From assembly GCA_013607635.1 (NCBI GenBank), contig VCAY01000005.1, positions 1-55,851 on the forward strand: a DNA stretch of 55,851 bases. The letters run 5' to 3'. This stretch comes from Campylobacterota bacterium. GTDB lineage: Bacteria; Campylobacterota; Campylobacteria; Campylobacterales; Sulfurimonadaceae. The position numbers were made by a program, and so were the translations under genes. Below are positions 12,118 through 55,851 of this stretch, piece after piece. Numbering within the stretch: the first letter of the stretch is position 1; each line of letters begins with the position of its first letter. The notes beneath the pieces are model-generated. The model saw nothing but the letters and a program-made list of their open reading frames with translations. It did no database searches and was not told the origin of the DNA.

Positions 12118-12297
12118 TTGAACTTCCCTATATTATTTATAAATTTTAGTAGTTAGTAGTAGGTGTAGGTGAAAATGTGAAAACATGCTACAACTAACCA
12201 AATTACGGTACTATTTTGATGTGAGAAGATTTTTTTCTCTATTCACATCTGTTCACTTCTATAATTATATCTTTTTTTTTATGCTATTGTTAAAAAT
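12118..12297. other. oriC2-like region: DnaA boxes plus AT-rich unwinding stretch between dnaN and dnaA
   Basis: A 180-bp gap with four TTCAC cores: GTGAA at 12169-12173 and 12177-12181, and TTCAC at 12242-12246 and 12252-12256. The last two are closely spaced direct repeats (CTATTCACA, CTGTTCACT). They are followed by an almost pure A/T tract at 12258-12297, a candidate DNA unwinding element. Published work on Campylobacterota origins describes bipartite oriCs around ruvC-dnaA-dnaN, TTCAC-core boxes, and unwinding in the dnaA-downstream part; this gap fits that description. Function here is inferred. Confidence 0.7.
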
Positions 12298-17600: not shown

Positions 17601-18929
17601 TTATTGAAACACTCTTTTAAAGATAGCATCAACATTTTTGGTGTAGTAATCGTAGTTAAAACACTCTCTTATCTGCTCTTCGCTAAGTTTACTTCTAAGC
17701 TCATCATCTTCTAGCAAGTGGTTAAGATAGAGTGACTCCCCTTTTTCATTGACAGTTGGTTTGCCCTGTTTGATCTCATCCCATACTTTCATCGCATTTC
17801 TTTGAACGATCCTATAAGCATCTTCACGACTCACACCCGCTTTTGGAAGCTCAAGTAAAACCCTTTGAGAGAAAACAAGCCCGCCTGTGAGGTTGAGATT
17901 TTTCATCATATTTTCTGGCATCACTGTAAGGTTAGCAATAACACTGTTCATTCTATGGAGCATAAAATCAGCCGTGATAAAAGCATCCGGCAGCCAAAAA
18001 CGCTCAGTTGAAGAGTGAGAGATATCGCGCTCATGCCAAAGGGCGACATTTTCCATAGCAGGGATCACATACGCACGGATCATTCGACAAAGCCCTGTGA
18101 TGTTCTCAGTCAAGATTGGGTTTCTTTTGTGTGGCATAGCTGATGAGCCTTTTTGCCCTTTTGCAAAATACTCCTCTGCTTCATACACCTCTGTTCTTTG
18201 TAGGTGTCTTATCTGCACGGCAAATTTTTCGATCGATGATGCCATGAGTGCGAGTGCTGAAGCGAGTCTTGCGTATCTGTCACGGTGTACCACTTGGTTG
18301 GAACACGGTTCAGGTTTTAGACCAAGCTCTGCCATAGCATACTCTTCAAGCTCTAGCGGAGCGTGAGCGAAGTTACCCATCGCACCACTGATCTGTCCAA
18401 CAGCGATCACTTCCATCGTCTCTTCAAGGTTTTTAAGGTGTCTTGCCATCTCATCGTACCAAACTGCAAGGGTCAAACCAAAAGTGATCGGCTCACCGTG
18501 GATACCGTGACTTCTTCCAACCATAAGAGTATATTTATGCTCTTGGGCTCTTTTTTTGATCGACTCCATCAACATCTTCACATCATCGATAATGATTTTA
18601 AGTGAGTCTCTCATCTGTAGTGCCACACCGGTATCAACAGCATCTGAAGAGGTCATACCGTAGTGGAACCATCGTGACTCTTCTCCGAGTGATTCAGCGA
18701 CACTTGTGTTAAAAGCGATAAGGTCATGTTTGGTTACTGCTTCGATCTTTTCAATCCTCTCAACCGAAAAAGTTGCATTCTCTACAATCTTCTTACAATC
18801 CTCATCAGGGATAAGTCCAAGTTTGTTCCATGCTTTTACAGCTGCCTTTTCAACCTCTAGCCATGCTGCGTAGCGTGCATGTTGTGTCCAATGTTTTGCC
18901 ATCTCTTTGCGAGCGTATCTTTCTACCAT
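17601..18929 (-). CDS. purB: Adenylosuccinate lyase
   Basis: Catalyses two fumarate-releasing steps of purine synthesis, SAICAR to AICAR and adenylosuccinate to AMP. The signature loop GSSAMPHKRNP is present, with the catalytic serine at S262/S263, and upstream TSSDAVDTG and GRSHGIHGEPITFG match the substrate-binding segments. 442 aa. It stands alone between nrdA (182-base gap) and the divergent RluA-type gene. Confidence 0.97.
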   Translation of the reverse strand: MVERYARKEMAKHWTQHARYAAWLEVEKAAVKAWNKLGLIPDEDCKKIVENATFSVERIEKIEAVTKHDLIAFNTSVAESLGEESRWFHYGMTSSDAVDTGVALQMRDSLKIIIDDVKMLMESIKKRAQEHKYTLMVGRSHGIHGEPITFGLTLAVWYDEMARHLKNLEETMEVIAVGQISGAMGNFAHAPLELEEYAMAELGLKPEPCSNQVVHRDRYARLASALALMASSIEKFAVQIRHLQRTEVYEAEEYFAKGQKGSSAMPHKRNPILTENITGLCRMIRAYVIPAMENVALWHERDISHSSTERFWLPDAFITADFMLHRMNSVIANLTVMPENMMKNLNLTGGLVFSQRVLLELPKAGVSREDAYRIVQRNAMKVWDEIKQGKPTVNEKGESLYLNHLLEDDELRSKLSEEQIRECFNYDYYTKNVDAIFKRVFQ

Positions 18930-19004
18930 CTATAACCTTTAATCTATTTATCAGTATAATTTCAATGTAGAATTTTACTCTATAGTTGATGAAAAAGGGA
19001 TTAA

Positions 19005-19916
19005 GTGCCATTTGTAAAAGAAACGTTACATATAATACCAAAGCAACGATTATTTCTCTTTTTAATCAAAGAGCTAGGCTGTCCACAAAAAGAGGCGCAA
19101 AGGATCATTGCCAAAGGACGAGTTTTACAAAATGGCATACCAATCATTAAAGCTTCGCAAGAGGTTGAGGGTGAGATTGAGTTTATCTATTTTAAACCGA
19201 TTTCACGAGGACTTAAGCCGCTATGTGTAGAGGAGCAGTTTGTCGTGTTTGACAAACCAAGTGGTGTGCTTATCCATCCTCAAAACAGAAATACCCCCTA
19301 CTCTTTAGTTGATGAGCTTAAAGCGCAGTTTGGTATGGATGCTAACATTACCCACCGTATCGATCAAGAGACAAGCGGGCTCGTTTTGTGTGCGAGAAAT
19401 AAAAAAAGTGAGCGAGATATCAAGATGATGTTTCAAGAGCGAGATATGCAAAAAACCTATTTGGCTATGGTGCATGGAAAGTTTGAAAAAGAGCTCACTG
19501 TTGAAGCGCCTCTACTCCGCAGGGAGGATAACTCTGCTATTGTAAGGATGGTGATAAAAGTTGATCCTCAAGGTAAACCCTCTAAGACACATTTCAAACC
19601 GTTAAAATATTTTGACGATCTCAATATGACTTTAGTAGAGTGTAAGCCATACACAGGCAGACAGCATCAGATACGTGTGCATTTGTTTCACGTGAAACAT
19701 CCAATCGTTGGTGATCCAATCTATGGTCAAAAAGCTGAAGATATTATAAAGTTTTTAGATAAAAAGATAACACCTAAGGAAAGGGAGGTATTAAGTGGAG
19801 CATCAAGATTATTATTGCATGCTTCTGAATTGTGCTTCACGCTTTATAATAGAGAGTATCACATCAAAAGTAAAGAAGATTTTGAAAATACGGTACGAAA
19901 TTTTGTTGCAATGTGA
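19005..19916 (+). CDS. RluA-family RNA pseudouridine synthase
   Basis: Isomerises specific uridines in rRNA or tRNA. It has an N-terminal S4-like RNA-binding region (about 16-55) and the catalytic HRxD motif THRIDQETSGL with D120, followed by YTGRQHQIRVHLFHVKHPIVGDPIYG. Which uridine it modifies (RluC, RluD or RluA type) cannot be told. The start is GTG (19005) with AAGGGA upstream. Codons 227-232 (Leu-Phe-His-Val-Lys-His) contain a perfect parS 16-mer at 19684-19699. The TGA stop lies inside a TTATTCACA-type DnaA box (19912-19920). Confidence 0.92.
   Translation: MPFVKETLHIIPKQRLFLFLIKELGCPQKEAQRIIAKGRVLQNGIPIIKASQEVEGEIEFIYFKPISRGLKPLCVEEQFVVFDKPSGVLIHPQNRNTPYSLVDELKAQFGMDANITHRIDQETSGLVLCARNKKSERDIKMMFQERDMQKTYLAMVHGKFEKELTVEAPLLRREDNSAIVRMVIKVDPQGKPSKTHFKPLKYFDDLNMTLVECKPYTGRQHQIRVHLFHVKHPIVGDPIYGQKAEDIIKFLDKKITPKEREVLSGASRLLLHASELCFTLYNREYHIKSKEDFENTVRNFVAM
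19684..19699. other. parS centromere site, perfect consensus
   Basis: TGTTTCACGTGAAACA, a 16-bp perfect palindrome identical to the widely conserved bacterial parS bound by ParB/Spo0J. It lies inside the RluA-type gene, about 6 kb from dnaA, and origin-proximal placement is typical. ParA and ParB are not encoded in this window. The family of sites is well established; binding here is inferred. Confidence 0.85.
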
Positions 19917-20250
19917 ATAACTTTTATGTTATAGAATCTATATCTATAGAATATATTTATAATGATTATCAAATTTCTAAAGAAGCCCTATTTTTAGGAA
20001 CTTAAGCTTTATTTTATTTATTTTGATTAAGTCAATATTTATATAAATAAATTCTTAAATTTTGAAGAAATTTGAAAAGTTTTTCTGAATCTCTTTTATT
20101 TTTATTCACACTTTAGAACAACGTGTGAATAATACACACACAATAAAAAATGATGAGTTTTTTTGAGTATATAAAATTGATTTAAGGGATAAAGCAGAGG
20201 TTTACTAAAAAACTAGAATTAAGAAAAGTAAGGTATGATTACATTCACAG
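19912..20250. other. Cluster of DnaA-box 9-mers in an AT-rich intergenic region
   Basis: This 367-bp gap between the RluA-type gene and the small membrane-peptide gene has no gene I can support. It holds three perfect TTATTCACA boxes: 19912-19920 (minus, over the rluA stop), 20102-20110 (plus) and 20124-20132 (minus). The last two form an inverted pair 13 bp apart. A fourth core (ATTCACA, 20243-20249) abuts a terminator hairpin. Between them lie long A/T tracts (about 19921-20100). Density of perfect boxes is higher than around dnaA itself. It may be a DnaA titration/reactivation site or an additional origin element. Confidence 0.6.
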
Positions 20251-20285
20251 ATGACCTCCCTGGTGTGTTGGTCATCTGCTTTTTT
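20248..20285 (+). terminator. Rho-independent terminator, plus strand
   Basis: CAGATGACC (20248-20256), a 13-base loop, then GGTCATCTG (20270-20278) form a perfect 9-bp stem followed by CTTTTTT. It points in the plus direction and lies 330 bases after the RluA-type gene, so it ends either a long rluA 3' tail or an unannotated short transcript. A TATGAT box (20234-20239) directly precedes it. It also sits immediately past the stop of the minus-strand small ORF, where it lacks a T-tract. Confidence 0.7.
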
Positions 20286-20388
20286 AATCCTCTTTTGTAG
20301 CAGCGTAGATAAACCCGCCGGCACCCACAGCAAATACTATAACGAGTAAAATAACTTCCGCTATATCAACACCTGAAAAATCACCCAT
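20284..20388 (-). CDS. Small single-pass membrane peptide (34 aa) downstream of rlmN
   Basis: A short gene starting with MGDFSGVDIAEVILL, followed by a hydrophobic helix (about residues 10-30, ending GGFIYAA) and a charged TKED tail, so a single-span membrane peptide. The start ATG (20386-20388) lies 2 bases past the rlmN stop, and AAGGA inside the last rlmN codons is well placed as its ribosome binding site, which argues for coupled translation. No known function is recognisable. Small oxidase or transporter accessory peptides look similar in outline. Confidence 0.65.
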   Translation of the reverse strand: MGDFSGVDIAEVILLVIVFAVGAGGFIYAATKED

Positions 20389-20390
20389 AT

Positions 20391-21437
20391 CTAATCCTTT
20401 AATTTGTTTTTTGTTTTTTCTTTGAGCTGGCCACACGCAGCGCTAATGTCAATCCCTTTAGAGTCCCTTATGGTGGCAAGTAAACCGTGCTGAATAAGAT
20501 ACTCCTGAAAATTGCGCATATCTTCATAGCTTGGACGCTGATATGCAGTTCCTGGATAAGGGTTAAAATATATGAGGTTGACCTTTGCTTTGATACCTGA
20601 GAGAAGCTTGATAAGTTTTTTTGCACTGCCCAGATCATCGTTTTTGTTTTTGATCACAAGGTACTCAAACATCACCCGTTTTCTTGTATCTATGGGAAAG
20701 CGTTTGACCGCTTCGATGATTGAGTGGATATTATGCGCTTTGTTCATGGGGATCAGTTCTGTTCGTAGTTCATCATCCACAGCATGAAGCGATATAGCGA
20801 TATGCACACCTAGATCCATCTTCCCTAAAGCGTCTATCTTATTGCTAAGACCGCTTGTGCTCACTGTTTGGCGTTTACCACCGATCGCCAATCCATCTTT
20901 TTCTTGAAATATCTCTATCGCTTTAGTGAGGTTATCTAAGTTATCAAGCGGTTCACCCATCCCCATATAGACAATATTGATCTTTTTGTTGTGTGGATGG
21001 TTGTTGTCGTGTTTGAGGCTAACTACTTGTGCAACGATCTCTCCAGCTGTTAAATCTCTTGTAAAACCACCCTTTGCCGTTAGACAAAATGCGCACCCTA
21101 CTTTGCATCCAACTTGTGTAGAGACACAGATGGTGTACTTATCCTCTTTCATCTTTAGCCAGACAGCTTCAACAGTTTTACCATCTTGCAGCTCAAAAAG
21201 GTATTTTATGGTGCCATCAGAGGACTCCTCTTTGCGTACAATTTTAAGTGGATTGATAATATATGTTTGTATGAGCTGTTCTTTAAGGGTTTTTGGGATA
21301 TTTTTCATCGCATTAAAATCTTGCGCATATTGGTGATACAACCATCCATAGATCTGTTTAGTACGAAAAGATGGAGTAACGATCCGGCTTAGTTCTTGAA
21401 GTGTATAGTCATAAAGTGAGGGTTTGGTGTTAGTCAT
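20391..21437 (-). CDS. rlmN: Dual-specificity RNA methyltransferase RlmN
   Basis: A radical SAM enzyme that methylates C2 of A2503 in 23S rRNA and A37 in some tRNAs. The 4Fe-4S motif C-x3-C-x2-C is at C111, C115 and C118 (GCKVGCAFCLTAKGG), and the C-terminal methyl-carrying cysteine is C335 in ISAACGQL. 348 aa, normal. Its ATG overlaps the stop of the nucleoside-phosphorylase-like gene by 4 bases. It is followed directly by the 34-codon membrane-peptide gene. Confidence 0.97.
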   Translation of the reverse strand: MTNTKPSLYDYTLQELSRIVTPSFRTKQIYGWLYHQYAQDFNAMKNIPKTLKEQLIQTYIINPLKIVRKEESSDGTIKYLFELQDGKTVEAVWLKMKEDKYTICVSTQVGCKVGCAFCLTAKGGFTRDLTAGEIVAQVVSLKHDNNHPHNKKINIVYMGMGEPLDNLDNLTKAIEIFQEKDGLAIGGKRQTVSTSGLSNKIDALGKMDLGVHIAISLHAVDDELRTELIPMNKAHNIHSIIEAVKRFPIDTRKRVMFEYLVIKNKNDDLGSAKKLIKLLSGIKAKVNLIYFNPYPGTAYQRPSYEDMRNFQEYLIQHGLLATIRDSKGIDISAACGQLKEKTKNKLKD

Positions 21438-21976
21438 CTTTGTGTTAGCTCCTTGATCCTTTTTTTTACATGGAGTGCTAACAACGCTTTTGCCTTCTCA
21501 TGGTTTTTCAAAAAATCTTGATGTGCGTTAGTGTTAGTGTAGTTTGTCACGCAAAAAACACCGCCGGCAGGTATTTCAAACTCTTTGGCAACTTGTAGTA
21601 CAGAGAAAAACTCCATATTCTCTATCCCAATGCCATACTTTAAAAACTTCTTTGCTTTGTCACCGCATGTAGTGATGTAGTTGGAGCTGTTTACAATAAC
21701 ATCTTTAATGTTTTGTGCGTTAGTTGAAACTACATTGTCTAGCGGAGTGTACGCACAGTTATCCAAAAATCCAAGCTCGATGTTAGCAGCGGTTTTACTC
21801 TCAATAATGTCAAATATTTTTGCATCGCCGTAACTTCCGGCAGTCCCCACAAAGAGTAAAAATTCCGGCTTGTCAAACAAACAAAGGCGTGTTATGTTCA
21901 TAGCAGACTCAATCAACCCTACTCCCATGGGGGTTGCAAAATCAAAAGTTTCGTTATTGCCCGCACAGATGATCAT
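21434..21976 (-). CDS. Nucleoside phosphorylase superfamily protein
   Basis: A 180-aa protein of the PNP/UDP phosphorylase fold. Visible features are an early GVGLIESAM segment, LLFVGTAGSYGDAKIFDI (the phosphate/ribose-binding G-(T/S)-A-G-x-G region) and GIENMEFFSVLQVAKEF (the purine/ribose-binding ENMEFF block, matching EMEA-type motifs). It is shorter than typical PNP or MTA/SAH nucleosidase (about 230 aa), mainly at the N-terminus, so it may have a specialised or reduced activity. It overlaps both neighbours by 4 bases in a four-gene minus-strand operon. Confidence 0.8.
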   Translation of the reverse strand: MIICAGNNETFDFATPMGVGLIESAMNITRLCLFDKPEFLLFVGTAGSYGDAKIFDIIESKTAANIELGFLDNCAYTPLDNVVSTNAQNIKDVIVNSSNYITTCGDKAKKFLKYGIGIENMEFFSVLQVAKEFEIPAGGVFCVTNYTNTNAHQDFLKNHEKAKALLALHVKKRIKELTQR

Positions 21977-44418: not shown

Positions 44419-44739
44419 TTAACATCCAAGAGCTTCACAAAGTTTTTTCTTTAGACCTAAAAAGCTTTTTTGTTTGAGTGAAGCGATAAATTTGGAACCT
44501 TTTATCAAAGAGCTGTCTACGGCAGTGAGTTTTGGAACGATAATGACGGAATCTTTTTTTAAAGAACCATCTGCAATATCCTTGGTACTAATTTTGAATC
44601 CCTCTCTTGTAAGGTTGCTTGTAAGCGGTAAAACGAGAACATCATCTTTGGAGATATTTTGATAAACCAAAACAGGACGTCCTTTACTTTTTGTAAAGTT
44701 AGAGTAGGGCATATTGATATAGTAGATATCTCCTACCAT
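44419..44739 (-). CDS. MazF/PemK-type toxin endoribonuclease
   Basis: 106 aa with the PemK/MazF fold: MVGDIYYINMPYSNFTKSKGRPVLVYQN at the start, then LVLPLTSN and VIIVPKLTAVDSSLI. This family cuts mRNA when its antitoxin is lost. The start overlaps the antitoxin gene by 7 bases. The usual MazF Arg and Thr/Ser active-site residues appear to be present in GRPVLVY and PLTSN. Toxicity is inferred. Confidence 0.86.
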   Translation of the reverse strand: MVGDIYYINMPYSNFTKSKGRPVLVYQNISKDDVLVLPLTSNLTREGFKISTKDIADGSLKKDSVIIVPKLTAVDSSLIKGSKFIASLKQKSFLGLKKKLCEALGC

Positions 44740-45177: not shown

Positions 45178-46020
45178 ATGGGATTTAGAATTAATACGAA
45201 CGTTAGTGCAATGAATGCGTGGAGAAACTCCACAATGAACAATTTTCACCTTGATAGAAGTTTGACTTCACTTAGTTCAGGTTTAAGAATTAACCGTGCT
45301 TCTGATGACGCTGCCGGTCTTGCAATCGCTGATAAACTTTCAGCACAGTCTCAAGGTCTTGGTCAAGCGATCAGAAATGCAAATGATGGTATCGGTCTTA
45401 TCCAAACTGCTGATGGTGCACTTGAAGAGTACACAAACATCTTAAAAAGGGTTCGTGTTCTTGCAGATCAAGCAGCCAATGATACGCAAGATGCTACATC
45501 TCGTGGGCATATCCAAAAAGAGGTTACAGCACTATTGCAAGGAGCAAGCGATATCGCTGCTACTACAAAATTTAATGGTGTAAAACTGCTAGATGGAACA
45601 GGTGGTAGCAGTAGTGATGGTAATTTTGTTTTCCATATTGGTGCTTATGCTAATGAAACACAAACTGCTGCGATTGGTACGAATACTGTTGCAGCTATTG
45701 TTAGTGGCTCAATTGCATCGATCGATGTTACAAGTAGAGCAGCTGCAGAAGCTACTATATCAAAAATGGATACAGCTCTTGATAATATCAATACAAAAAG
45801 AGCAGTTCTTGGTGCGGCTCAAAACAAACTTGAATCAACTGTTAGAAACATCTCAGTTACTCAGGTAAATGTTACTGCTGCAGAGAGTCAAATTCGTGAT
45901 GTTGATTTTGCTGCTGAGTCTGCAAACTTCAACAAAAGAAATATCTTGGCACAATCTGGTTCTTATGCGATGAGTCAAGCGAACGCCGTACAACAAAACG
46001 TGCTTAGACTACTTCAGTAG
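45178..46020 (+). CDS. Flagellin
   Basis: The filament subunit, 280 aa. The N-terminal D0/D1 signature GFRINTNVSAMNAWRNS and the C-terminal DVDFAAESANFNKRNILAQSGSYAMSQANAVQQNVLRLLQ region are conserved in type. The variable middle is very short (about residues 140-180, Ser/Gly/Thr-rich), where O-glycans would attach. An in-frame start at 45103 exists, but the true start is 45178: the leader upstream is structured RNA, AAGGATT is spaced correctly, and the protein begins with the conserved motif. It is driven by a sigma-28 promoter and faces the glycosylation operon. Confidence 0.96.
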   Translation: MGFRINTNVSAMNAWRNSTMNNFHLDRSLTSLSSGLRINRASDDAAGLAIADKLSAQSQGLGQAIRNANDGIGLIQTADGALEEYTNILKRVRVLADQAANDTQDATSRGHIQKEVTALLQGASDIAATTKFNGVKLLDGTGGSSSDGNFVFHIGAYANETQTAAIGTNTVAAIVSGSIASIDVTSRAAAEATISKMDTALDNINTKRAVLGAAQNKLESTVRNISVTQVNVTAAESQIRDVDFAAESANFNKRNILAQSGSYAMSQANAVQQNVLRLLQ

Positions 46021-46096: not shown

Positions 46097-48115
46097 TTAG
46101 CTTGCTCTCTTTGTTTTTTGCAGAAATGTTCCAATCTTTTTGGTATAGGTGTTAATAATATTGTTTAATGCTTCTACTACAAGTGTATCCACTCTTTTGA
46201 TATCCTCATGCAACTGTTTTAAGTCTTTCTCTTTTGTGTTGCACATATCGTAGATTATAGGCACCACATATTGGAAAAACATATCAAAAACTTTTGTAAT
46301 ATTACGATTCTCTCTTGTTTGAGCCGGATAAAGTTCGATAATAAGACCATAAAGATTATAAAGATATTTGTTTATATCTGTGTATGTGACTCTCTTTTGA
46401 TATTTTTTAATAATCTTGTTGGTTTTTTTTGCATAGCTTAATCGTTGCCTCATTGATTCTAAATCTTCTTCGCTAAGCTTTGTTTGACTGAGTTGAAGTA
46501 TCTCGTTATAGAAATTGTTAAAAACATCTTTTTTGTTATGCATACTATGGATGGTTATATCTTTTGCATGTATTGCTATTGTATTGCGAAAGTGTGCACC
46601 CTCATTGAGGTTGTAGATGGTTTGTTGTTCAGTTTTAAGGTGGGTTACTATATTGTTAATTGCTACAATAGAGTTATTAAATAGAGGTGTTGTCTTGACG
46701 GCTTCAGTAAAGTTTCCTTGCACTGTAAAAAGATCATCCCTTAAAGAGATTTCATTAGTTAAATTGCTGTCAAGGTGTTCTAAGTCATATTTTCCACTTG
46801 TTATATGTGCACCTGCATGTGTTGCACCATCTTTTCCAAGAGCTAAGTCGATACCAAGCAAATAGATCTCTTTAAATCCCAGAAGTATAGCATTTGCAAC
46901 ACTTGTTGAACCTATACACGGAGCTTCAACAGATCCAAAGTTGTTAAAATAAAATGTATCTTCTTCAAATATAAAGGTTTGTTCTTTGTTGAAAAGTTCA
47001 ATAACTCTTTTTTCGACAAAAGAGCCAAGTATAGCGATTGAGTCTTTGACAAACTCTTTAATGGGAAAAGTTTCAAAGTTTTTATATCCATATTTGAAAC
47101 CATCAATATGACTGACAATATCAGGTTTGATATTGTGTTTATGAAGTGTCCTTAATGAAGTTGCAACCGCAAAGATAATAAGATCCTCTTGATGTTGCGC
47201 TAGCCATTGAATGTTTTTATCGAGCGATGGTCCTGCACCCACGACGACTACCGGTTTTTCAGTAATACTTTTGAGTTGTAGGTGTTTTGCAAGATTCAAA
47301 AAATGGTAGCTGTTGAGTGCTTGTAGAGGTCTTAAGAACTTGTCTAAAACAGTATTGTAACCAAAAGTTAAAAAGTTTTGCGAGGCTAAAATACTTTTCA
47401 TAAGTTGGATTTTATTTTTGGAGTGCGCAGGAAAATAGGAGTATTTTAATAAGCGATTGAGATAAAAACTGTTCTCTAAAAACTGTCTAAAATCTCTACT
47501 AAAGTCTGTTTCGTTAGATGCAATAGAAAAGATAACCATCTTATCTGAAAATAGCTTATAATAAGGTGTTGTAAAGAGTGAAAGTCTAAAAAGCTCAAGG
47601 TCATCTTCGACAATAAAAATAATTTCCGATTTGGTCTTTTGAAGAACTTTTTCTATATGTGTTCCAAGTCCAGTACCGATAAACATGAATTTTTCAATTT
47701 TTTTCATTGTTGTTTCGTAAGGGTAGCGTTCAAGGTAGTAGCTCATTATTGGATAGATATCTTTGTGTGAAGATGCCATATCATCAAGTTCCCTATCTTC
47801 AAAGCCATAGACAAGTCTAAAACCCTGGAAACTAAAATGATCCTTTTTAAAGTTGATTTGATCGCAAAGGCTTTGTGAAATCTTTTCGCTATTATCACTA
47901 TAAAGAAACTCTTTAGTTTGAAGATTTTGAACATCGAAATAACCTTCATTTTTGTATTCAAGGGTATATTTTTCAAATGTGTAACCAGATTCAAGACCAT
48001 TTTGAAAAATATCAACCTTGTGGAAGAGTTCATTATGATGCTTTTTGAGATAGTCCATATTGTTATGGAAGTTTTCGATCGCTTGAGTTTCGATACTTTG
48101 CATTGTTTGCTCCAT
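46097..48115 (-). CDS. Motility accessory factor (Maf, DUF115 family) 1
   Basis: 672 aa. A central DUF115/MptE-like domain is marked by VVVVGAGPSLDKNIQWL (about 290-306) and KPDIVSHIDGFKYG, preceded by a less conserved N-terminal region and followed by a helical C-terminus. In Campylobacter and relatives, and in Aeromonas (Maf1), these proteins are needed to glycosylate flagellin. It shares sequence pattern with the adjacent Maf 2, so it is likely a tandem duplicate. The longest start (48115) overlaps maf 2 by 53 bases; ATG 48103 aligns better with the paralogue's N-terminus. Last gene of the operon, facing the flagellin gene. Confidence 0.88.
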   Translation of the reverse strand: MEQTMQSIETQAIENFHNNMDYLKKHHNELFHKVDIFQNGLESGYTFEKYTLEYKNEGYFDVQNLQTKEFLYSDNSEKISQSLCDQINFKKDHFSFQGFRLVYGFEDRELDDMASSHKDIYPIMSYYLERYPYETTMKKIEKFMFIGTGLGTHIEKVLQKTKSEIIFIVEDDLELFRLSLFTTPYYKLFSDKMVIFSIASNETDFSRDFRQFLENSFYLNRLLKYSYFPAHSKNKIQLMKSILASQNFLTFGYNTVLDKFLRPLQALNSYHFLNLAKHLQLKSITEKPVVVVGAGPSLDKNIQWLAQHQEDLIIFAVATSLRTLHKHNIKPDIVSHIDGFKYGYKNFETFPIKEFVKDSIAILGSFVEKRVIELFNKEQTFIFEEDTFYFNNFGSVEAPCIGSTSVANAILLGFKEIYLLGIDLALGKDGATHAGAHITSGKYDLEHLDSNLTNEISLRDDLFTVQGNFTEAVKTTPLFNNSIVAINNIVTHLKTEQQTIYNLNEGAHFRNTIAIHAKDITIHSMHNKKDVFNNFYNEILQLSQTKLSEEDLESMRQRLSYAKKTNKIIKKYQKRVTYTDINKYLYNLYGLIIELYPAQTRENRNITKVFDMFFQYVVPIIYDMCNTKEKDLKQLHEDIKRVDTLVVEALNNIINTYTKKIGTFLQKTKRAS

Positions 48116-50021
48116 TTTGGTTGTAATCTAATAGGTGTGCAAATCTTTGAAGAATCTCCAAAAGATTATTGACAAGATCTTTTTGTATGGTACGGATATC
48201 TGGTTGTAAGCCTTGTGAGTTACATGTATCAAAAATATATCCATAAACAAAACGGGTGTAATTCTCCAACAAAATCAAGAGCACTTCGCACGATTTTTCT
48301 TGACATAAGCAAAGATCGTTCTTAAATTGTATGAGGGCTTGTAAAAACTCTGTTTTGTTGTGAAAGGTTTGTGTTGCAAAGCTTTTGACAAGCAAGATCT
48401 TTTGTTGTGTTTTTTGTTGTATCTCTTGAATAAATTGGGTCTCTTCTGTTGAGAGTGTTGCGGCACTGTTGTTGTGCATGACAGTCTTAAGATCGTGATG
48501 TGATTTTTTGGAATGACTGGTTGTGTGAAAGAGTGTTGCATCTGCAGGTGTGGTGTTTTTGAGTTTTGCGCCGTCATTGAGATTGTAAATTTGTTGATAG
48601 TCTTGTTTGAGCCCCAAGCTGATCTCATCGATCGCTTTAATGGAGGTTGCAAAATTTGGAGTAGATTTTACTTTTGGCTGTAAGTTACCTGCTACTTCTA
48701 TGATCGAATCACGAAAACTTTTTGTTTGTGCATTTTCATTGGCTGTGAGTGTATAGCTGTAACCATGGGCATGTGTTTGGAGTGTTTGTTGGTTCAGTGC
48801 CAAATCAAGACCCACGAGCAGTATCTCTTTAAAACCCAGTGCTACTAAGATAAGGTAAGTGGCAGATCCGGCACAAAAAGCACTCAGCTCTCCAAAGCCC
48901 TGTTTGAAGTTGGTACCACTTTCAAAGAAAAAGATCTGCTCTTTGGCAAACATCGAGACAATGGTGAGGGGCGTTTTAGCGCTTAGTAGTAAAAGGGAGT
49001 CTTGTAAGAAAGTTTTGTCTTGAAGCTTTTGAAAATGGATGGCACTCCTTGCAAAGCCATCAAAGTGTGTAACGATGTCAGGTTTGATTTGTGCGTTTTC
49101 AAGTATGCTTAGTGTTGCTGAGAGTGCTACGATAAAGTACTCATCTTGTTTGTCTTGGAGAAATGTAATATGTTTGTCTAAAGATGGTCCCGGAGCTACG
49201 AGGATCACCTTTTTATCTTGAGCAAACTGTTGTAGCTCTTTTGATGTAAGGTTAACAAACGGGTAGTTGTTTTGCAGATAATAAAGAGGCCTTGTGTATT
49301 GCTCAAGTATCGAGCTGTAAAAAAAGTTAAGATGTGATTGGCTTACAATGATGGTGTGGAGCCAATTGAGTTTTTCTTCGGAGTGAAAAATAGATTCAAA
49401 AAACTTGATGTAGTGGTTGTAGTAAAACGCTTCGTTGAAAAATTGTTGCGCTATCTTGCCAAAGCTTTCATTGTCAGATCCAACAGCAAAAAAGAGTTTG
49501 GCTTTTTTTGCGATTTCAAAATAGGGTGTCGTCAAGAGAGAAAGGCGGAAAAGCTCAATATTGTCTTCAATGATGAGGTAGTATTTTGCATCTATTTTGT
49601 TAGCGATTGGATCGAGATGTAAGCCTGAACCAAAAAAAATGAACTTGAAGATTTGCTGCATCTCTTTATCTTTACTTTGAACAAACAGATCATCTACAAA
49701 GTTGTAATCTTTGGTTGTGTCGTTTTTTCCAAGCAGCTTAAAAGTTTCAAAAACATTCTCATTTTTGCGGTGATTCACACTTTGTTGCATTACATTTACA
49801 TAATGCTTACTTTGTTGGTTGTAGAGGTATTTATTGCTTTGTGTGTTGAAGATATCAAACCCGCCATCTTCATAGGTGAGTATAAAGTTTTCTACCAGCT
49901 TGCCTTGATCAACCATCATCTCAAACTGTTCTATGAGTCGATAAAGATCAGGATGCTCTTTTTGAAAGTAAGTGATATTGTTACGATAATTTTGTGCAAT
50001 ATGGGTTTGCGGGTTGTGCAT
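48063..50021 (-). CDS. Motility accessory factor (Maf, DUF115 family) 2
   Basis: 652 aa, a paralogue of the neighbouring gene. The signature appears as VILVAPGPSLDKHITFL (about 272-288) and KPDIVTHFDGFARS, with SATYLILVALGFKEILLVGLDLALN later. It is the presumed glycosyltransferase-like factor that transfers a nonulosonate or related sugar to flagellin; the enzymatic role is inferred. It starts directly against the stop of the Gfo/Idh-family gene. The two Mafs diverge enough that they may act on different donors or sites. Confidence 0.88.
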   Translation of the reverse strand: MHNPQTHIAQNYRNNITYFQKEHPDLYRLIEQFEMMVDQGKLVENFILTYEDGGFDIFNTQSNKYLYNQQSKHYVNVMQQSVNHRKNENVFETFKLLGKNDTTKDYNFVDDLFVQSKDKEMQQIFKFIFFGSGLHLDPIANKIDAKYYLIIEDNIELFRLSLLTTPYFEIAKKAKLFFAVGSDNESFGKIAQQFFNEAFYYNHYIKFFESIFHSEEKLNWLHTIIVSQSHLNFFYSSILEQYTRPLYYLQNNYPFVNLTSKELQQFAQDKKVILVAPGPSLDKHITFLQDKQDEYFIVALSATLSILENAQIKPDIVTHFDGFARSAIHFQKLQDKTFLQDSLLLLSAKTPLTIVSMFAKEQIFFFESGTNFKQGFGELSAFCAGSATYLILVALGFKEILLVGLDLALNQQTLQTHAHGYSYTLTANENAQTKSFRDSIIEVAGNLQPKVKSTPNFATSIKAIDEISLGLKQDYQQIYNLNDGAKLKNTTPADATLFHTTSHSKKSHHDLKTVMHNNSAATLSTEETQFIQEIQQKTQQKILLVKSFATQTFHNKTEFLQALIQFKNDLCLCQEKSCEVLLILLENYTRFVYGYIFDTCNSQGLQPDIRTIQKDLVNNLLEILQRFAHLLDYNQNGANNAKYRNSSDRKLP

Positions 50022-51140
50022 TTAGTGAGTGTCTCCATTGGCTATGGTCACAAACGTTGATTGTTGATTGGCTACAGAAGCGCTATGGAGTAGTTTTAAG
50101 CCAAAGTGTGCATGATCGATACCATAGATATATTCACTAAGGTATGGCTGTTTTTTGTGAAACTTATCGAGCGCCGTAGCGATATCGTTGTAGATATTTG
50201 CAAAACTCTCTATAAATCCCGCAGGATGCCCGGGTGTCATTCTGTTGTAAAAGGTGTTTGGCGGTATCTCTATATCGCTTCCTCGATCGATGATCGTTTT
50301 TTCTCCTGTATTGTATGAAAACTCTAAAAGCTCCGGTGTCTCTTGGTGCCATGACGCACTAGCTTTTGTGCCATAAACCTCTATATGTAACCCGTTGCGA
50401 TTGCCAAGTGCTGTTTTGCTAAGCCATAGATTCCCACTGATGCCACTTTTGTAGTGTAGTAGCATATTGACATCGTCAATAACATCGTACTTTGAAAAGC
50501 TACTGTAGTGTGCCATAACGCTTGTTGGCTCTTCATGGAGTAAAAAATATGCCAGATGGTGCAGGTGTGAGCCAAGATCTAAATTGATCATAGGGATAAA
50601 TGCATCTTGAAGTCGCCACTTTTGTGGGTATTTGACACTTTTTGGAGGTCGTAAAAAGCTCTCTTGGGGCATCTTGAGACGAATAGAGAGTATCTCTCCG
50701 AGTTCATTAGATGCGATTTTGCGACGCAACTCCCGCAACATAGGGTAGCCACTATAGTTGTTTGTCACAACCAAGAAATGTTTTGAAGGATCGTAGATTT
50801 TTTTGATCTTGGCAACCTCTTCAAGGGAACCAACTAAAGGCTTTTCACAGATTATGGGGATATTTGCTTGCAGCAAGTCGATAATCATCTGCGAATGTAG
50901 AGGTGTCGGTGTAAGTATAACAACAGCATCAATTCGATCTTTTTCGTGGGCAATCAAGCTTTGATAATCATCATAACAGCGCTCTATCTTCCACTGTTTT
51001 GCCGTTGCTTTGTTAATGGCAGCATCTGTACTGAAAGTGCCACTAAGTACTTCAAACTTTTTGTCCATTTGTGATGCTATAAAATGGGGGTATCCTGCTA
51101 TTGAGTCAATACTCCCTCCGATAAAAGCCAACTTATACAT
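50022..51140 (-). CDS. Gfo/Idh/MocA-family sugar oxidoreductase
   Basis: 372 aa with an N-terminal Rossmann fold (LAFIGGSIDSIAGYPHF), the strongly conserved EKP motif at 99-101 (PIICEKPLVG), and the MINLDLGSHLHHLAYFL segment carrying the usual catalytic His. This family oxidises or epimerises sugar and nucleotide-sugar ring carbons with NAD(P). It begins 4 bases after the FkbM gene and abuts maf 2. It probably acts in making the flagellin sugar donor; the substrate is unknown. Confidence 0.88.
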   Translation of the reverse strand: MYKLAFIGGSIDSIAGYPHFIASQMDKKFEVLSGTFSTDAAINKATAKQWKIERCYDDYQSLIAHEKDRIDAVVILTPTPLHSQMIIDLLQANIPIICEKPLVGSLEEVAKIKKIYDPSKHFLVVTNNYSGYPMLRELRRKIASNELGEILSIRLKMPQESFLRPPKSVKYPQKWRLQDAFIPMINLDLGSHLHHLAYFLLHEEPTSVMAHYSSFSKYDVIDDVNMLLHYKSGISGNLWLSKTALGNRNGLHIEVYGTKASASWHQETPELLEFSYNTGEKTIIDRGSDIEIPPNTFYNRMTPGHPAGFIESFANIYNDIATALDKFHKKQPYLSEYIYGIDHAHFGLKLLHSASVANQQSTFVTIANGDTH

Positions 51141-51144
51141 TTTA

Positions 51145-52197
51145 CTACCTCTGTGTACTTATGCAGTACAAAACCGTACTTAAGCACATATCTTCATGTA
51201 CCCGTAGATACATATCGTACGATGGCTCTATTTGTTTAATAAGAAGAGGAAGCTCCCATAGATCTTCAGGTTTGTGATAAAGACAAATTGCTAAGTTTGG
51301 TTTGTATTTTTGTAGAGTTTTTGTTGCTCCTAAAAGAGCCTGTTTCTCAGCCCCTTCTATATCCATCTTGATGTAGTCTGCAGCAACATTGCACAACACA
51401 TCATCAGGTGAGACGACTTGTATCGATACGGATGCATCGTCACTGATCGATGCACTGGAGTCAATACCGTCATTTGCAAAGCGAAGTGTTGTAGATCGAT
51501 CATACACTCCGGCAGGATATACAAAAAATTCGGTATGTTCAAATAGCTCTTTTTGTCTGTGAAGTTCAAGGTTTAGCTTTTGGAGGTTTGATAGATCTGG
51601 TTCAAAAGAGATGGTTGTTTTGACACTTGAGGTGTGTTGCATCAAATCTTTGATCATATCTCCCGTATACGCTCCGCAATCTACAAAGTTAATGTTGTGA
51701 AGTTGCTCCAAGATGGGAACATCCGAGGGAAAGTACTCCTTATCGTAAGGTTTTATGTAGTGTTTGATATCGAGTGTTTTTCTTAAAAGCACCATCTGAT
51801 CCAAAAGTTTTTTACTCTTTTGATCTTTGAGCAGTTCTCTTAGTGTCGCTATCTTGGCATCATCTACCATTTTTGTATTGTCAGCAACAAGCCATAGATA
51901 ATTTGTTTTTGCAACAAGGCGTAAAATCTCTGGCATATCGCTGATCGATTCTGTAAAACCAAGTACATTGGTATAGCCTAATTTCAATAGTTTTTGTTTG
52001 ATCATACCTGAAGACTGCATGACGGAGATATATATTTTGGTATGTTTGGCTACTTCGTTTAAATGTTTGATCTTTTTATCTTCATAGTGGGAACTATCTG
52101 CAAAGTCATCGATAAAAAAGTCTATCTTTTTATCTAACGCTTGAAAAAAAAGTTTTCCAAACGCTCCTGCACCGTATATCGCCGTTTTATGCAACAT
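51145..52197 (-). CDS. FkbM-family methyltransferase with N-terminal Rossmann-like domain
   Basis: 350 aa. Residues about 173-179 (FVDCGAYTG) form the SAM-binding motif and DYIKMDIEGAEKQALLGA is the FkbM signature, so an O-methyltransferase is likely. Residues 1-80 form an extra Rossmann-like unit (KTAIYGAGAFGKLFFQALD) as in UDP-sugar modifying fusions, not part of the core FkbM domain. The start is ATG 52197 with AGGAG 4 bases upstream; a TTG at 52200 is less likely. It overlaps the radical SAM gene by 1 base (TGATG). It probably methylates the flagellin sugar. Confidence 0.86.
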   Translation of the reverse strand: MLHKTAIYGAGAFGKLFFQALDKKIDFFIDDFADSSHYEDKKIKHLNEVAKHTKIYISVMQSSGMIKQKLLKLGYTNVLGFTESISDMPEILRLVAKTNYLWLVADNTKMVDDAKIATLRELLKDQKSKKLLDQMVLLRKTLDIKHYIKPYDKEYFPSDVPILEQLHNINFVDCGAYTGDMIKDLMQHTSSVKTTISFEPDLSNLQKLNLELHRQKELFEHTEFFVYPAGVYDRSTTLRFANDGIDSSASISDDASVSIQVVSPDDVLCNVAADYIKMDIEGAEKQALLGATKTLQKYKPNLAICLYHKPEDLWELPLLIKQIEPSYDMYLRVHEDMCLSTVLYCISTQR

Positions 52198-53657
52198 CAA
52201 TCTCCTAAAATCTTTCTTTTAAGTCTTGTTTTTGTAACACTTTGCATGTGCTCTCTTACCTCTTTGCCAAATTTTGCCTCTAGCATATCAAGATATTTCG
52301 GATTTTCAAAATACTCATGAAAAGCATCATCCCTAAACTTCACAATCTCTTTTGTGCTGAGATGTTTTGAGGGTAGTGGTTGCATATTGTAAGAGTGTTG
52401 AGAATACCCTGTCCACTCTTTTGGCAATTCCCAGCCTCTCTCTAAAGCTATTGTGTAGAGTTGCGAACCGGGATACGCCATGGCACAATAAAAATTGGCA
52501 AATTCACAGTTTAACTCTTTTGCCATCTCGAGTGTCTCTTGCATAGATTCTATCGTGTCATCAGGCAGACCAAATATGTAATTGCCTATCACTCTGATTC
52601 CGGCATTTTGGATCTTGTTGACGATGCTTTGTATATCTTTTACCCGCATCTTCTTAGATGCACCATCACGCACATCCGCATTTGCAGACTCTATGCCAAG
52701 TGCGAGCCAGTTAAAACCTGCTTTTTTGAGTTTTTTGAGAGTGTGCTCTTTTACAGTGTCAACCCTTGCATAAGCCCAAATATTCAAATCGAAATCTTTT
52801 GCTATTAGCAAGTCAACGATCTTCATATAGTGTCGTTCATCCAAAACAAACATCTCATCTATGATTTTTAAATTTTTTATGCCATATTTTTTATAAAGCA
52901 ACTCTATCTCTTTGACAACCAACTCCGGGCTTCTGTATCTGATACCATTGCCGCCAAATGGAGCATTGATACAACAAAATGTACATTTATACGGACAACC
53001 AAGAGATGTATAGATGGCACCATAAGGGATCCGATCTTCTATGGCATCAAAGCAGTGCCAGTTGTGCGCTCTGTATTCCTCCATCGGGAGCAGATCCCAA
53101 GCTGCGATGGGTAAGTACTTATCTAAATTATCGATCAATTTGGGTTTTGGGTTGTTTTTTATTTCATTGTTTTGTTTATACCAAAGTCCACGAACTTTTG
53201 AGAGATCCTTATCTGTCTTCAAGCACTTTATTAACTCTTTTAAAGGGATCTGCTCTTCACCCTCTATAACAAAATCAACAGACTCCTCTTTGAGTGTTCT
53301 TTTTGGCAATGCCGATGGATGAAGCCCACCCATAACAACTTGAGTGTCGGTAAGGTTTTTGATTGCTTTGGCTATACGACCCGATATTGTCATATTTTGT
53401 GTAGATGCTGATGGCTGGTTCCCATAAACAATTACGGCTGTTACAAGAGGATTGAGTGTTTTTACCTGCTGTGCTGTTTCTTGTGGCGTGAGGTTCTCAG
53501 CATTTGCATCAATAATAGCAACCTTAAACCCTTCATCTCTTAAAAAACTTGCATAAGAAGCGATCTGAAACGGTGGTTCTAATGCTGTTAGATCTTTGCC
53601 TAAGTCTTGAAATATTATTTTTCTGTCCCCAGGATTTACAAATACAATATCTATCAC
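52197..53657 (-). CDS. B12-binding-type radical SAM protein
   Basis: 486 aa. Residues 1-140 have the cobalamin-binding fold seen in BchE/P-methylase-type proteins (DIVFVNPGD, QIASYASFLRDEGFKVAIID, VVMGGLHPSALP, VIEGEEQ). The radical SAM cluster motif is C221-x3-C225-x2-C228 (SLGCPYKCTFCCIN). Members catalyse C-methylation or other difficult carbon chemistry; the lack of an obvious D-x-H-x-x-G B12 motif means cobalamin binding is uncertain. The start is GTG, overlapping the transketolase stop (GTGA). Confidence 0.85.
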   Translation of the reverse strand: MIDIVFVNPGDRKIIFQDLGKDLTALEPPFQIASYASFLRDEGFKVAIIDANAENLTPQETAQQVKTLNPLVTAVIVYGNQPSASTQNMTISGRIAKAIKNLTDTQVVMGGLHPSALPKRTLKEESVDFVIEGEEQIPLKELIKCLKTDKDLSKVRGLWYKQNNEIKNNPKPKLIDNLDKYLPIAAWDLLPMEEYRAHNWHCFDAIEDRIPYGAIYTSLGCPYKCTFCCINAPFGGNGIRYRSPELVVKEIELLYKKYGIKNLKIIDEMFVLDERHYMKIVDLLIAKDFDLNIWAYARVDTVKEHTLKKLKKAGFNWLALGIESANADVRDGASKKMRVKDIQSIVNKIQNAGIRVIGNYIFGLPDDTIESMQETLEMAKELNCEFANFYCAMAYPGSQLYTIALERGWELPKEWTGYSQHSYNMQPLPSKHLSTKEIVKFRDDAFHEYFENPKYLDMLEAKFGKEVREHMQSVTKTRLKRKILGD

Positions 53658-54571
53658 ATCAAAGCCTTTTGAATCTCATCAATAATATCATTTTTTCCTA
53701 ATTTGTGTCTTTTATGAACAAACTCGCGATCACCAATTTCAAATGTATATTGTTTCTCAAACCCTAAGTTGATTATCTTTTTGCTTTTGAAGTTAAAGTT
53801 TATTTCTGCATCCAAGCCACCGGTATTTTTAAAAGCCTCTTCGATGGTTATGAGAGTCTCTACATCTTTTAAAGTTTGTTCAAGTTTGTTTTTATCGTAG
53901 TGGTTGATCAGATATATATCTATAAGTGTGATGTCAAAATCTTGTATTATCTCCATAGCTTTTTGACTCATATACCCAGTAGAGATCACAGCGAGTTTTT
54001 TACCCTTTTTTAAAACTCTAAATCCATCCTCAAAATTATGGACAGTACTTTGTAAAGCGCTCATTGGCTTAGCATCAAACCTTAAATATTTTGGTTGGCA
54101 AAGGTTGAGTGTTCGATCCACATAAGTTTCTGCCAACATAAAGTCACTTGGGGAAAACACCTCCATATTTGGTAGTGTTTTCATAATAGACAAATCCTCT
54201 AAACAATGGTGTGTATGCCCACTCATAGTATAGCTTACCCCTGCACCAACTCCGATAAAGTTGATATTCATCTGCCTTACATGTGAAAGTACAGAAACAT
54301 TGACCCTTATTTGTTCGTAACATCTCATAGTGATAAAAGGGGCAATAGCATAGGCATAAACTGTAAAACCTTCCAACGCTAAACCTGTAGCTACATTGAC
54401 AAGGTTCTGCTCAGCGATGCCGACATTGATAAACCTCTGTGGGAAATCCTCTCTGATTTTATCCAATAAAGGAGCTCCAAAATCTGCTACAACAAAAAAT
54501 ATTGTTTCATCATCTTTCATCTTTTCATATAAAGAGGCTAAAAACACATCTCTCATAGCTTTAGTCTGCAT
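53654..54571 (-). CDS. Transketolase-like protein, C-terminal half (pyrimidine-binding and transketolase C domains)
   Basis: 305 aa. It corresponds to the second half of transketolase/DXS-type enzymes: FVVADFGAPLLDKIREDFPQRFINVGIAEQN (the pyrimidine-binding domain with the conserved E in GIAEQN), SGHTHHCLEDLSIMKTLPNM, then a C-terminal domain. It acts with the adjacent N-terminal half as a two-subunit TPP enzyme. Split transketolases are common in surface-sugar clusters. It overlaps its partner by 11 bases. Confidence 0.9.
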   Translation of the reverse strand: MQTKAMRDVFLASLYEKMKDDETIFFVVADFGAPLLDKIREDFPQRFINVGIAEQNLVNVATGLALEGFTVYAYAIAPFITMRCYEQIRVNVSVLSHVRQMNINFIGVGAGVSYTMSGHTHHCLEDLSIMKTLPNMEVFSPSDFMLAETYVDRTLNLCQPKYLRFDAKPMSALQSTVHNFEDGFRVLKKGKKLAVISTGYMSQKAMEIIQDFDITLIDIYLINHYDKNKLEQTLKDVETLITIEEAFKNTGGLDAEINFNFKSKKIINLGFEKQYTFEIGDREFVHKRHKLGKNDIIDEIQKALM

Positions 54572-55388
54572 TTTTTATCTCCTCTATGAGATTGTCAATA
54601 TCTTCTGGTTTTACTGATAAGATATGACTTAAAGAGTGTGTTTCTAAAAAAGGCACACCTTTGCCTTTGATGGTGTTTGCAATCACAACTTTTGGTTTGT
54701 TGTCTCTTTTGTTGATAGCCTCTTGCAATGTAGTGTACACCTCTTTTACATCATGTGCATCTGCTATTTCGTACACCTCCCAGCAAAAAGATGCAAACTT
54801 TTGATTGAGGGAACTCATATCAATAATGTTTCTACTAAAATCTAACATTGAGACTTTGTTGTAGTCAACAATCAGGGTTAAATTATCTAGCTTGTGTTGA
54901 GGAGCAAACATAATAGCTTCCCAGTTTGAGCCCTCATTGAGTTCACCATCACCACAAAGCACTACAACATTTTGTTTTTCTCTTTTTGCCTTCAAAGCCA
55001 GTGCCATTCCAGATCCAACACCAAGACCATGTCCGAGTGATCCATTGACTGTTTCATAGCCAGGGATGATTGGATCGGGAATACCCCCTAAAAATGTTCC
55101 ATTTTGGCATACTTTTTTTAGCTCTGATTTATCGAAAAAACCCAAATCTGCCAGTAGCGGATACATGGAGATCGAACCATGCCCTTTTGAGATGATAAAC
55201 CTGTCTCTGTTTTCATCTTTCGGGTTTTTTGGATTAAAGCTTAAGATGTTGCCGTAATATAAACAGACAAATATCTCAATGGGAGATAAAGAGGAGGCAA
55301 CTCTCGTTTCGGGAGCTTGCTTATGAATCTGCAAAGTTTCACATCGTACAAACTTTGCTTTCTCCTTTAATAGTTGAAAATTACTCAT
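54561..55388 (-). CDS. Transketolase-like protein, N-terminal half (TPP pyrophosphate-binding domain)
   Basis: 275 aa. The TPP/Mg motif GDGELNEGSNWEAIMFAPQHKLDN is present, with early residues RFIISKGHGSISMYPLLADLG typical of transketolase. With the following gene it completes a TPP enzyme that moves a two-carbon ketol unit. Its ATG overlaps the fucose-synthase-like gene by 8 bases. A housekeeping transketolase would usually be a single chain and not sit in a glycosylation operon, so a dedicated role is likely. Confidence 0.9.
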   Translation of the reverse strand: MSNFQLLKEKAKFVRCETLQIHKQAPETRVASSLSPIEIFVCLYYGNILSFNPKNPKDENRDRFIISKGHGSISMYPLLADLGFFDKSELKKVCQNGTFLGGIPDPIIPGYETVNGSLGHGLGVGSGMALALKAKREKQNVVVLCGDGELNEGSNWEAIMFAPQHKLDNLTLIVDYNKVSMLDFSRNIIDMSSLNQKFASFCWEVYEIADAHDVKEVYTTLQEAINKRDNKPKVVIANTIKGKGVPFLETHSLSHILSVKPEDIDNLIEEIKNAD

Positions 55389-55851
55389 AGTGTTCCTTGT
55401 ACCATTGGTAAGTTCTCTGAAGCCCCTCTTGAAATGTCACTTTTGGCCTCCATCCAAGCTCTAAAAACTTGTTACTATCAAGCAGTTTTTGCGGTGTTCC
55501 GTCAGGTTTTGTCTCATCCCACAGTATCTTTCCATCAAAGCCGACAACTTTTGCAATAGCTTGAGCCAACTCTTTAATAGAGTAGTCTACACCTGTTCCA
55601 AGGTTGTAAAACTGATTTTTGAGTTTATGGGTGTTTTGCATCAAAAATATTGAAGCACTCGCAACATCACCACTATAGATAAACTCTCTTCGTGGTTTGC
55701 CACTTCCCCACAATGTTATCGATCTCTTGCCATTTTGTTTCGCCTCATGAAATCGTCTTATAAGGGCAGAAAAAACATGGGAGTTTTCCAAGTCAAAGTT
55801 GTCATTTTCCCCATACATAGAGTTTGGTATGACACATATAAATCTGTTGTT
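55381..55851 (-). CDS. GDP-L-fucose synthase homologue (C-terminal part, cut by window end)
   Basis: The gene runs off the right edge; its 3' 157 codons are visible. It shows the epimerase/reductase pattern of GDP-4-keto-6-deoxymannose epimerase-reductases: VIPNSMYGENDNFDLENSHV, ITLWGSGKPRREFIYSGDVA and the conserved NLGTGVDYSIKELA, then GWRPKVTFQEGL. The catalytic Ser-Tyr-Lys lies outside the window. It implies that a GDP-linked 6-deoxyhexose is made here. First visible gene of the operon, overlapping the split transketolase gene by 8 bases. Confidence 0.9.
   Translation of the reverse strand, partial: NNRFICVIPNSMYGENDNFDLENSHVFSALIRRFHEAKQNGKRSITLWGSGKPRREFIYSGDVASASIFLMQNTHKLKNQFYNLGTGVDYSIKELAQAIAKVVGFDGKILWDETKPDGTPQKLLDSNKFLELGWRPKVTFQEGLQRTYQWYKEHYE

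Follow-up and report, generated by a model that had tools for sequence, protein, structure and literature searches.

A flagellin-linked operon of a Campylobacterota bacterium and its split transketolase, a candidate for C4-branching of a GDP-heptose

Which sugar is made by an operon that faces a flagellin gene and carries a transketolase of its own, and does that sugar end up on flagellin? The question is raised by a window of 55,851 nucleotides that is the whole of contig C55 (VCAY01000005.1) of a Campylobacterota MAG (G000, GCA_013607635.1; 1.4 Mb, 72 contigs). At positions 46097-55851 of its minus strand, open reading frames and profile searches confirmed eight co-directed, mostly overlapping genes in the order and with the domains that an earlier note on this DNA had listed, together with the face-to-face flagellin gene it had described, which lies on the plus strand with its stop 76 bases from the last maf gene:

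45178-46020, plus strand: flagellin, the presumed acceptor protein (Flagellin_N and Flagellin_C; start at MGFRINTN), convergent with the operon
46097-48115, minus strand: Maf-type flagellin glycosyltransferase of 672 aa (PF01973, 6e-34; PF20157, 2e-8)
48063-50021, minus strand: second Maf-type flagellin glycosyltransferase, of 652 aa (PF01973, 1e-26; PF20157, 7e-7)
50022-51140, minus strand: Gfo/Idh/MocA oxidoreductase (Gfo), a predicted accessory sugar or nucleotide-sugar dehydrogenase (PF01408, PF22725, PF02894)
51145-52200, minus strand: FkbM-type methyltransferase with an extra N-terminal region (PF05050, 2e-11; TIGR01444 above cut-off)
52197-53657, minus strand: cobalamin-binding radical SAM protein (rSAM) with CxxxCxxC at residues 221-228 (PF02310 and PF04055)
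53654-54571, minus strand: TktC, the pyrimidine-binding and C-terminal domains of a split transketolase (PF02779, PF02780)
54561-55388, minus strand: TktN, the diphosphate-binding domain of the split transketolase, GDG motif kept (PF00456)
55381-55851, minus strand: Fcl (GDP-fucose synthase)-like epimerase/reductase, C-terminal half only, the 5′ end being cut by the contig end (NF047922, 2e-59)

Read from Fcl towards Maf, the first four gene pairs overlap by 8, 11, 4 and 4 bases, the next two leave 4 and 0 bases between the genes, and the two maf genes as called share 53 bases, or fewer should translation begin at an internal ATG. With seven co-directed junctions that overlap or lie no more than 4 bases apart, chance is excluded as the origin of this arrangement, and the TktN/TktC module was seen again in dozens of genomes. 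We see about an even chance, judging from sequence, that the operon represents the downstream half of an island for flagellin glycosylation, which makes a GDP-activated C4-branched 3-deoxy-heptose, and that this sugar or a derivative is placed on flagellin. Between topA and the flagellin gene, a 106-aa ORF (window 44419-44739, minus strand) was recognized by eye as PemK/MazF-like.

Because the window is a whole contig, the operon is truncated upstream and its upstream half lies on another contig. In an Arcobacter MAG (L004), whose TktC is 78% identical to the window copy, the gene order is GmhA, HddC, GmhB, HddA, ColD-like, a TIM-barrel protein, Cj1427-like, Fcl, TktN, TktC and rSAM. The end of contig C7 of our own MAG carries fliS, fliD, pseB, pseC, pseF, pseI, pseG, an ATP-grasp gene, two further genes, HddC, and an HddA N-terminus with a ColD fragment; at this right end, HddC and the HddA N-terminus are 55% and 75% identical, respectively, to the L004 copies. 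The right end of C7 and the end of C55 most likely flank a gap of a few kb in a single island, because a genome of the same genus (G161) has fliS/fliD, pse genes, ATP-grasp, HddC, HddA, ColD, Cj1427-like, Fcl, TktN, TktC and rSAM on one contig. A comparison of the C7 and C55 ends found no exact overlap, so their adjacency rests on synteny. On C7, the HddA N-terminus is fused in frame to ColD residues about 214-258 (C7:27277 end; L079 about 12150-12278), skipping ~1.3 kb of G161, and this junction may be an assembly fault or a true deletion. Searches of the 1.4-Mb MAG, which is broken exactly at the expected place, did not recover the Cj1427-like gene and recovered only a fragment of ColD; thus, we infer the middle of the pathway in this organism from its relatives. 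GmhA did not turn up either; the MAG has 1.4 Mb, as against 2.0-2.4 Mb in most of the relatives listed. The stretch between the pse genes and HddC has conserved genes for the ATP-grasp-like protein and for two uncharacterized proteins of ~270 and ~410 aa (L079 7903-11124; L092 14451-17646).

TktN/TktC has its diphosphate-binding domain on one chain and its pyrimidine and C-terminal domains on the other. A housekeeping role for the pair was rejected, since the genome encodes a complete canonical transketolase with all canonical residues on C30; DXS is on C3. Neither chain reached a curated NCBIfam equivalog cut-off. We aligned the pair with 46 close relatives and with other split transketolases, using the residue numbering of E. 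coli TktA. Three substitutions at donor-binding positions, H26 to R, H100 to I and D469 to S, are present in the window pair and in all 46 relatives, and S385, a phosphate/funnel residue like H461 and R520, is replaced by P in all sequences but one. R520 is lost as well, being A in the window and A, S, G or V across the clade. Sequence alignment placed the residues clearly but for H461, which appears absent or replaced by Gly or Ala in a gapped region and is the least certain residue. The ThDP-binding or activating residues D155 (of the GDG motif), N185, E411, H66 and H473 are kept in the window pair and the 46 relatives, H261 is kept in all but one, and the clade also keeps R358. Among the other split transketolases, H26 is kept in nine of nine and H100 in eight of nine.

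The TktN/TktC relatives form a distinct clade (47 rows, support 100/100). Copies from Methylococcaceae/Methylococcales (L005-L007) nest inside its Campylobacterota part, indicating horizontal transfer between phyla. The clade is rare in the family of the window, where three of 200 sampled genomes, our own included, gave matches above 50% identity. A search of the phylum added seven genomes with the same signature (R26, I100, S469, R520 lost), among which G393 appears to be the same contig as L008. A search of a plasmid collection gave only matches of ~30% identity, with uninformative context. Two of the copies from the phylum search, in G220 and G374, have Asn in place of D155 of the GDG motif, and the reading frame of the G220 TktC contains an in-frame TAG, so that alteration or decay of both copies is possible. 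A different split transketolase with canonical H26 and H100 lies beside ColD- and Fcl-like genes in a genome of the same genus (G053:C1 about 1476001-1496000, L095) and represents a second, separate type of sugar-cluster transketolase. We know of no assayed enzyme of the TktN/TktC clade.

The substituted positions have been the subject of transketolase engineering. In the E. coli enzyme, S385Y/D469T/R520Q moved acceptor preference off phosphorylated aldehydes, and H26 contacts the acceptor aldehyde in docking (PMC5073344). H100L combined with D469T and changes at S385 and R520 led to acceptance of pyruvate as donor (PMC10787763), replacement of H100 by Leu or Phe gives pyruvate use in engineered enzymes (PMC10787763; PMC7661550), and H100L in another transketolase is cited, in a passage of PMC7661550, as reaching one-third of the pyruvate activity of DXPS. 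The engineered H100L/D469T/R520Q/S385X enzymes are thus altered at the same positions as the natural clade (H100I, D469S, R520A, S385P), but they are laboratory-made, and the assays paired pyruvate with aromatic aldehydes rather than ketones (PMC10787763). Given I, S, P and A at the engineered positions, the clade would be expected to use a pyruvate-type donor and an acceptor other than a phosphosugar. By analogy, the predicted donor step is an acetyl transfer from pyruvate, the heptose counterpart of yersiniose synthesis. Pyruvate and hydroxypyruvate differ only by a hydroxyl group. As a matter of speculation, a ketone acceptor would be one reason for R26 throughout the clade.

An enzyme acting on the same acceptor might instead transfer a ketol (hydroxyacetyl) group from a ketose or hydroxypyruvate, as the earlier note had supposed and as has been suggested in miharamycin and amipurimycin synthesis. 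Membership of the transketolase superfamily, retention of R358, H66, H261 and H473, and the split-gene Streptomyces transketolases proposed to add hydroxyacetyl to keto sugars (PMC12247030) all speak for such a transfer. However, donor-binding H100 is Ile and H26 is Arg in every member, and replacement of H100 by Leu or Phe is the very change that enables pyruvate use, so we regard a ketol donor as unlikely and favor acetyl transfer.

Two lines of evidence support use of the sugar on flagellin: searches of the MAG turned up two Maf genes and no more, both of them inside the operon, and a closed genome (G314) carries, all in one direction, two flagellins, a 1219-aa Maf, GmhA, HddC, HddA, ColD, Cj1427-like, Fcl, TktN, TktC, sulfate-activation genes and rSAM. 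In two further genomes the module lies near flagellar and pseudaminic acid genes, adjoining fliD-pse genes in G086 and close to fliD and pse genes in G161. In common with known Maf-dependent flagellin glycosylation, our MAG has Maf domains, a convergent flagellin gene and, on C7, pse genes. Counting against the proposal, the characterized Maf enzymes in the literature known to us use CMP-nonulosonates, and C7 carries pseudaminic acid genes; here, the maf operon contains an additional GDP-sugar module.

In this organism, too, the sugar could be destined for LPS, capsule or some other polysaccharide, the maf genes being mere neighbors. Many relatives have glycosyltransferase, flippase-like or ABC-transporter genes beside the module, and in most of those outside Campylobacterota the module accompanies polysaccharide genes rather than flagellar ones. 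We nevertheless consider a polysaccharide destination improbable here, given that both maf genes belong to the same overlapping gene run, that we saw neither a transporter nor a polymerase gene in the operon, and that G314, G161 and G086 place the module in flagellar company. The occurrence of the module among polysaccharide genes elsewhere implies that its product is probably a general surface-glycan sugar that has apparently been wired to flagellin in some Campylobacterota. In L092 (7324-10673) and in G314 (L119/L120, around 18577-21854 of the joined stretch), the sugar cluster includes genes for an APS kinase-like protein, ATP sulfurylase, an inositol-monophosphatase-family (CysQ-like) protein and a single-domain pyruvate-kinase-like protein (PF00224), which suggests a sulfated variant of the sugar, alongside an odd pyruvate-kinase relative.

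The identity of the acceptor is indicated by the recurrent partners of the module. We compared 34 relative loci of at least 15 kb with eight loci of other split transketolases. A Cj1427-like GDP-heptose C4-dehydrogenase was present in all 34 (none of the eight), HddA and HddC were each present in 32 (one of the eight), and a ColD-like gene of the C3-dehydratase type was present in 32 (two of the eight). GmhA was found in 22 of the 34 and an L-2-hydroxyglutarate oxidase-like gene in nine. An enzyme forming a 4-keto group together with a ColD-like dehydratase, the context for a 3-deoxy-4-keto nucleotide sugar, thus occurs in 32 of the 34. Both identifications are strong (6vo6, E 4e-113, for Cj1427-like; 2gms, E 1e-137, for ColD-like), and the ColD-like proteins have the His-His motif of the dehydratase but not the aminotransferase Lys. 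An aminotransferase function for the ColD-like gene of proteobacterial loci was rejected because the His-His motif is kept. Cj1427 oxidizes GDP-heptose while converting alpha-ketoglutarate to L-2-hydroxyglutarate (PMC10680097), with which the L-2-hydroxyglutarate oxidase gene of some clusters fits. In a laboratory enzyme combination, Cj1427 and a C. jejuni C3-dehydratase yield GDP-D-glycero-3-deoxy-4-keto-heptose in vitro (PMC10680097). Given the frequency of these partners, the sequences point to GDP-3-deoxy-4-keto-heptose as the most likely acceptor, rather than GDP-4-keto-6-deoxymannose.

GDP-4-keto-6-deoxymannose or another GDP-hexose would accord with the Fcl-like gene of the operon and with two closed genomes of another family (G220 and G374), in which the clade occurs with a true GDP-mannose 4,6-dehydratase gene (gmd), a second gmd-like gene, ColD and several Fcl-like genes. 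A hexose acceptor is nonetheless quite unlikely in our view: searches for gmd gave no match above cut-off in the MAG or in closed G314 and G422, both of which carry the module, Cj1427-like genes accompany every long locus, and G220 and G374 also have HddA, GmhA and HddC, so that a 6-deoxy-heptose is possible there. A GDP-3-deoxy-4-keto sugar, as judged from gene content, is the denominator shared with G220 and G374 as well. Lastly, the notion that the pair is a dedicated transketolase supplying sedoheptulose-7-phosphate, the precursor of the GDP-heptose whose genes are nearly always nearby, is very improbable: nearly all members lack the phosphate-contacting residues S385 and R520, none retains D469 or H100, the genome has a canonical transketolase as well, and in most loci tktN/tktC abut Fcl or Cj1427-like genes, not gmhA.

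The earlier note had seen here a flagellin-linked sugar operon whose two-chain transketolase adds a ketol group to GDP-4-keto-6-deoxymannose, with a putative C- or O-methylation of the product to follow. Its first half stands: the pair is not the cell's only transketolase, and the same module lies by flagellin and maf genes elsewhere, in closed G314. The proposed acceptor did not find support, the partners being GDP-heptose enzymes and gmd being absent, and the ketol has become doubtful with the loss of His100.

The remaining enzymes are less constant. The window Fcl is 73% identical to the L004 copy over residues 161-315 and keeps H179, R187, W202 and R209 (E. coli Fcl numbering). Since all C4-reductase residues are kept, it could reduce C4 and so compete with branching. 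Assignment as a plain GDP-fucose synthase was rejected, as the full-length L004 copy scores 391 bits against a cut-off of 500 and gmd is lacking. Fcl is missing from ten of the 34 long loci (present in 24) and an rSAM relative from nine (present in 25), indicating that the reduction and rSAM steps are not universal. The best PDB sequence match of the rSAM protein is AprD4 (6fd2, 4e-20), a diol-dehydratase, which makes dehydration or deoxygenation as possible as methylation. FkbM and Gfo were not found by the module in the other 34 long loci and were rejected as core parts of it; G161 (L101) likewise has a Gfo-like gene ahead of two maf genes.

Gene content and order, the residue signature, the clade, the recurrent partners and the flagellar context are direct observations, and from them we infer catalytic steps, donor, product and transfer as follows. 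HddA, HddC and a phosphatase would make GDP-D-glycero-D-manno-heptose, the Cj1427-like dehydrogenase would oxidize its C4, and the ColD-like PLP enzyme would remove the C3 hydroxyl to give GDP-3-deoxy-4-keto-heptose. TktN/TktC would then add a two-carbon unit, most likely acetyl from pyruvate, to the C4 ketone, generating a tertiary alcohol. The Fcl-like enzyme might reduce the new branch ketone and/or epimerize C5, the B12 radical SAM protein, FkbM and Gfo might decorate the sugar, and Maf would transfer it to flagellin.

This predicted logic is shared with the yersiniose A pathway of Yersinia pseudotuberculosis (YerE; relatives ErwE and MMAR_2332), in which a ThDP enzyme attaches a branch to C4 of a 3-deoxy-4-keto nucleotide sugar and the branch is then reduced. 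YerE, however, belongs to the decarboxylase superfamily and acts on a CDP-hexose (PMC12247030), whereas the present enzyme has transketolase domains on two chains and presumably acts on a GDP-heptose. The miharamycin and amipurimycin transketolases of Streptomyces are likewise two-chain and likewise proposed to C-branch a keto sugar. A 2025 review describes the transketolases thought to take ketone acceptors as uncharacterized in vitro, and its 13 split-gene candidates are all from Streptomyces (PMC12247030), while ours come from Gram-negative surface-glycan clusters. GDP-heptose modification for the C. jejuni capsule (Cj1427; HS:5 C3-dehydratase) has HddA/HddC, Cj1427-like and ColD-like homologues in common with the module, but there the 4-keto group is reduced, and a transketolase is not mentioned in PMC10680097. 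The closest solved structure by sequence for both chains is the split transketolase of Carboxydothermus hydrogenoformans (6yak/6yaj); its split point is identical, but that enzyme carries out ordinary ketol transfer and has His at both H26 and H100 (PMC7661550). Searches of open-access papers for a transketolase connected with GDP-heptose or flagellin glycosylation found nothing relevant, and a natural route to branched sugars through an altered transketolase would, as far as searchable open-access papers go, be so far undescribed.

We tentatively propose that a natural transketolase-superfamily enzyme has become a pyruvate-dependent brancher of ketones, convergent with YerE, that would place acetyl on C4 of GDP-3-deoxy-4-keto-heptose; the resulting C9 branched sugar would be destined for flagellin in some Campylobacterota, and many other phyla would build it into surface polysaccharides. 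Given the signature of the clade and an acceptor that has already been made enzymatically (PMC10680097), the question of ketone acceptors is directly testable. If the proposal is true, the clade supplies Gram-negative candidates by the dozen, recognizable by a clear sequence signature, and nature uses the residue positions that engineers changed to obtain pyruvate donors and non-phosphorylated acceptors. A heptose-derived branched sugar would then also join the possible flagellin glycans.
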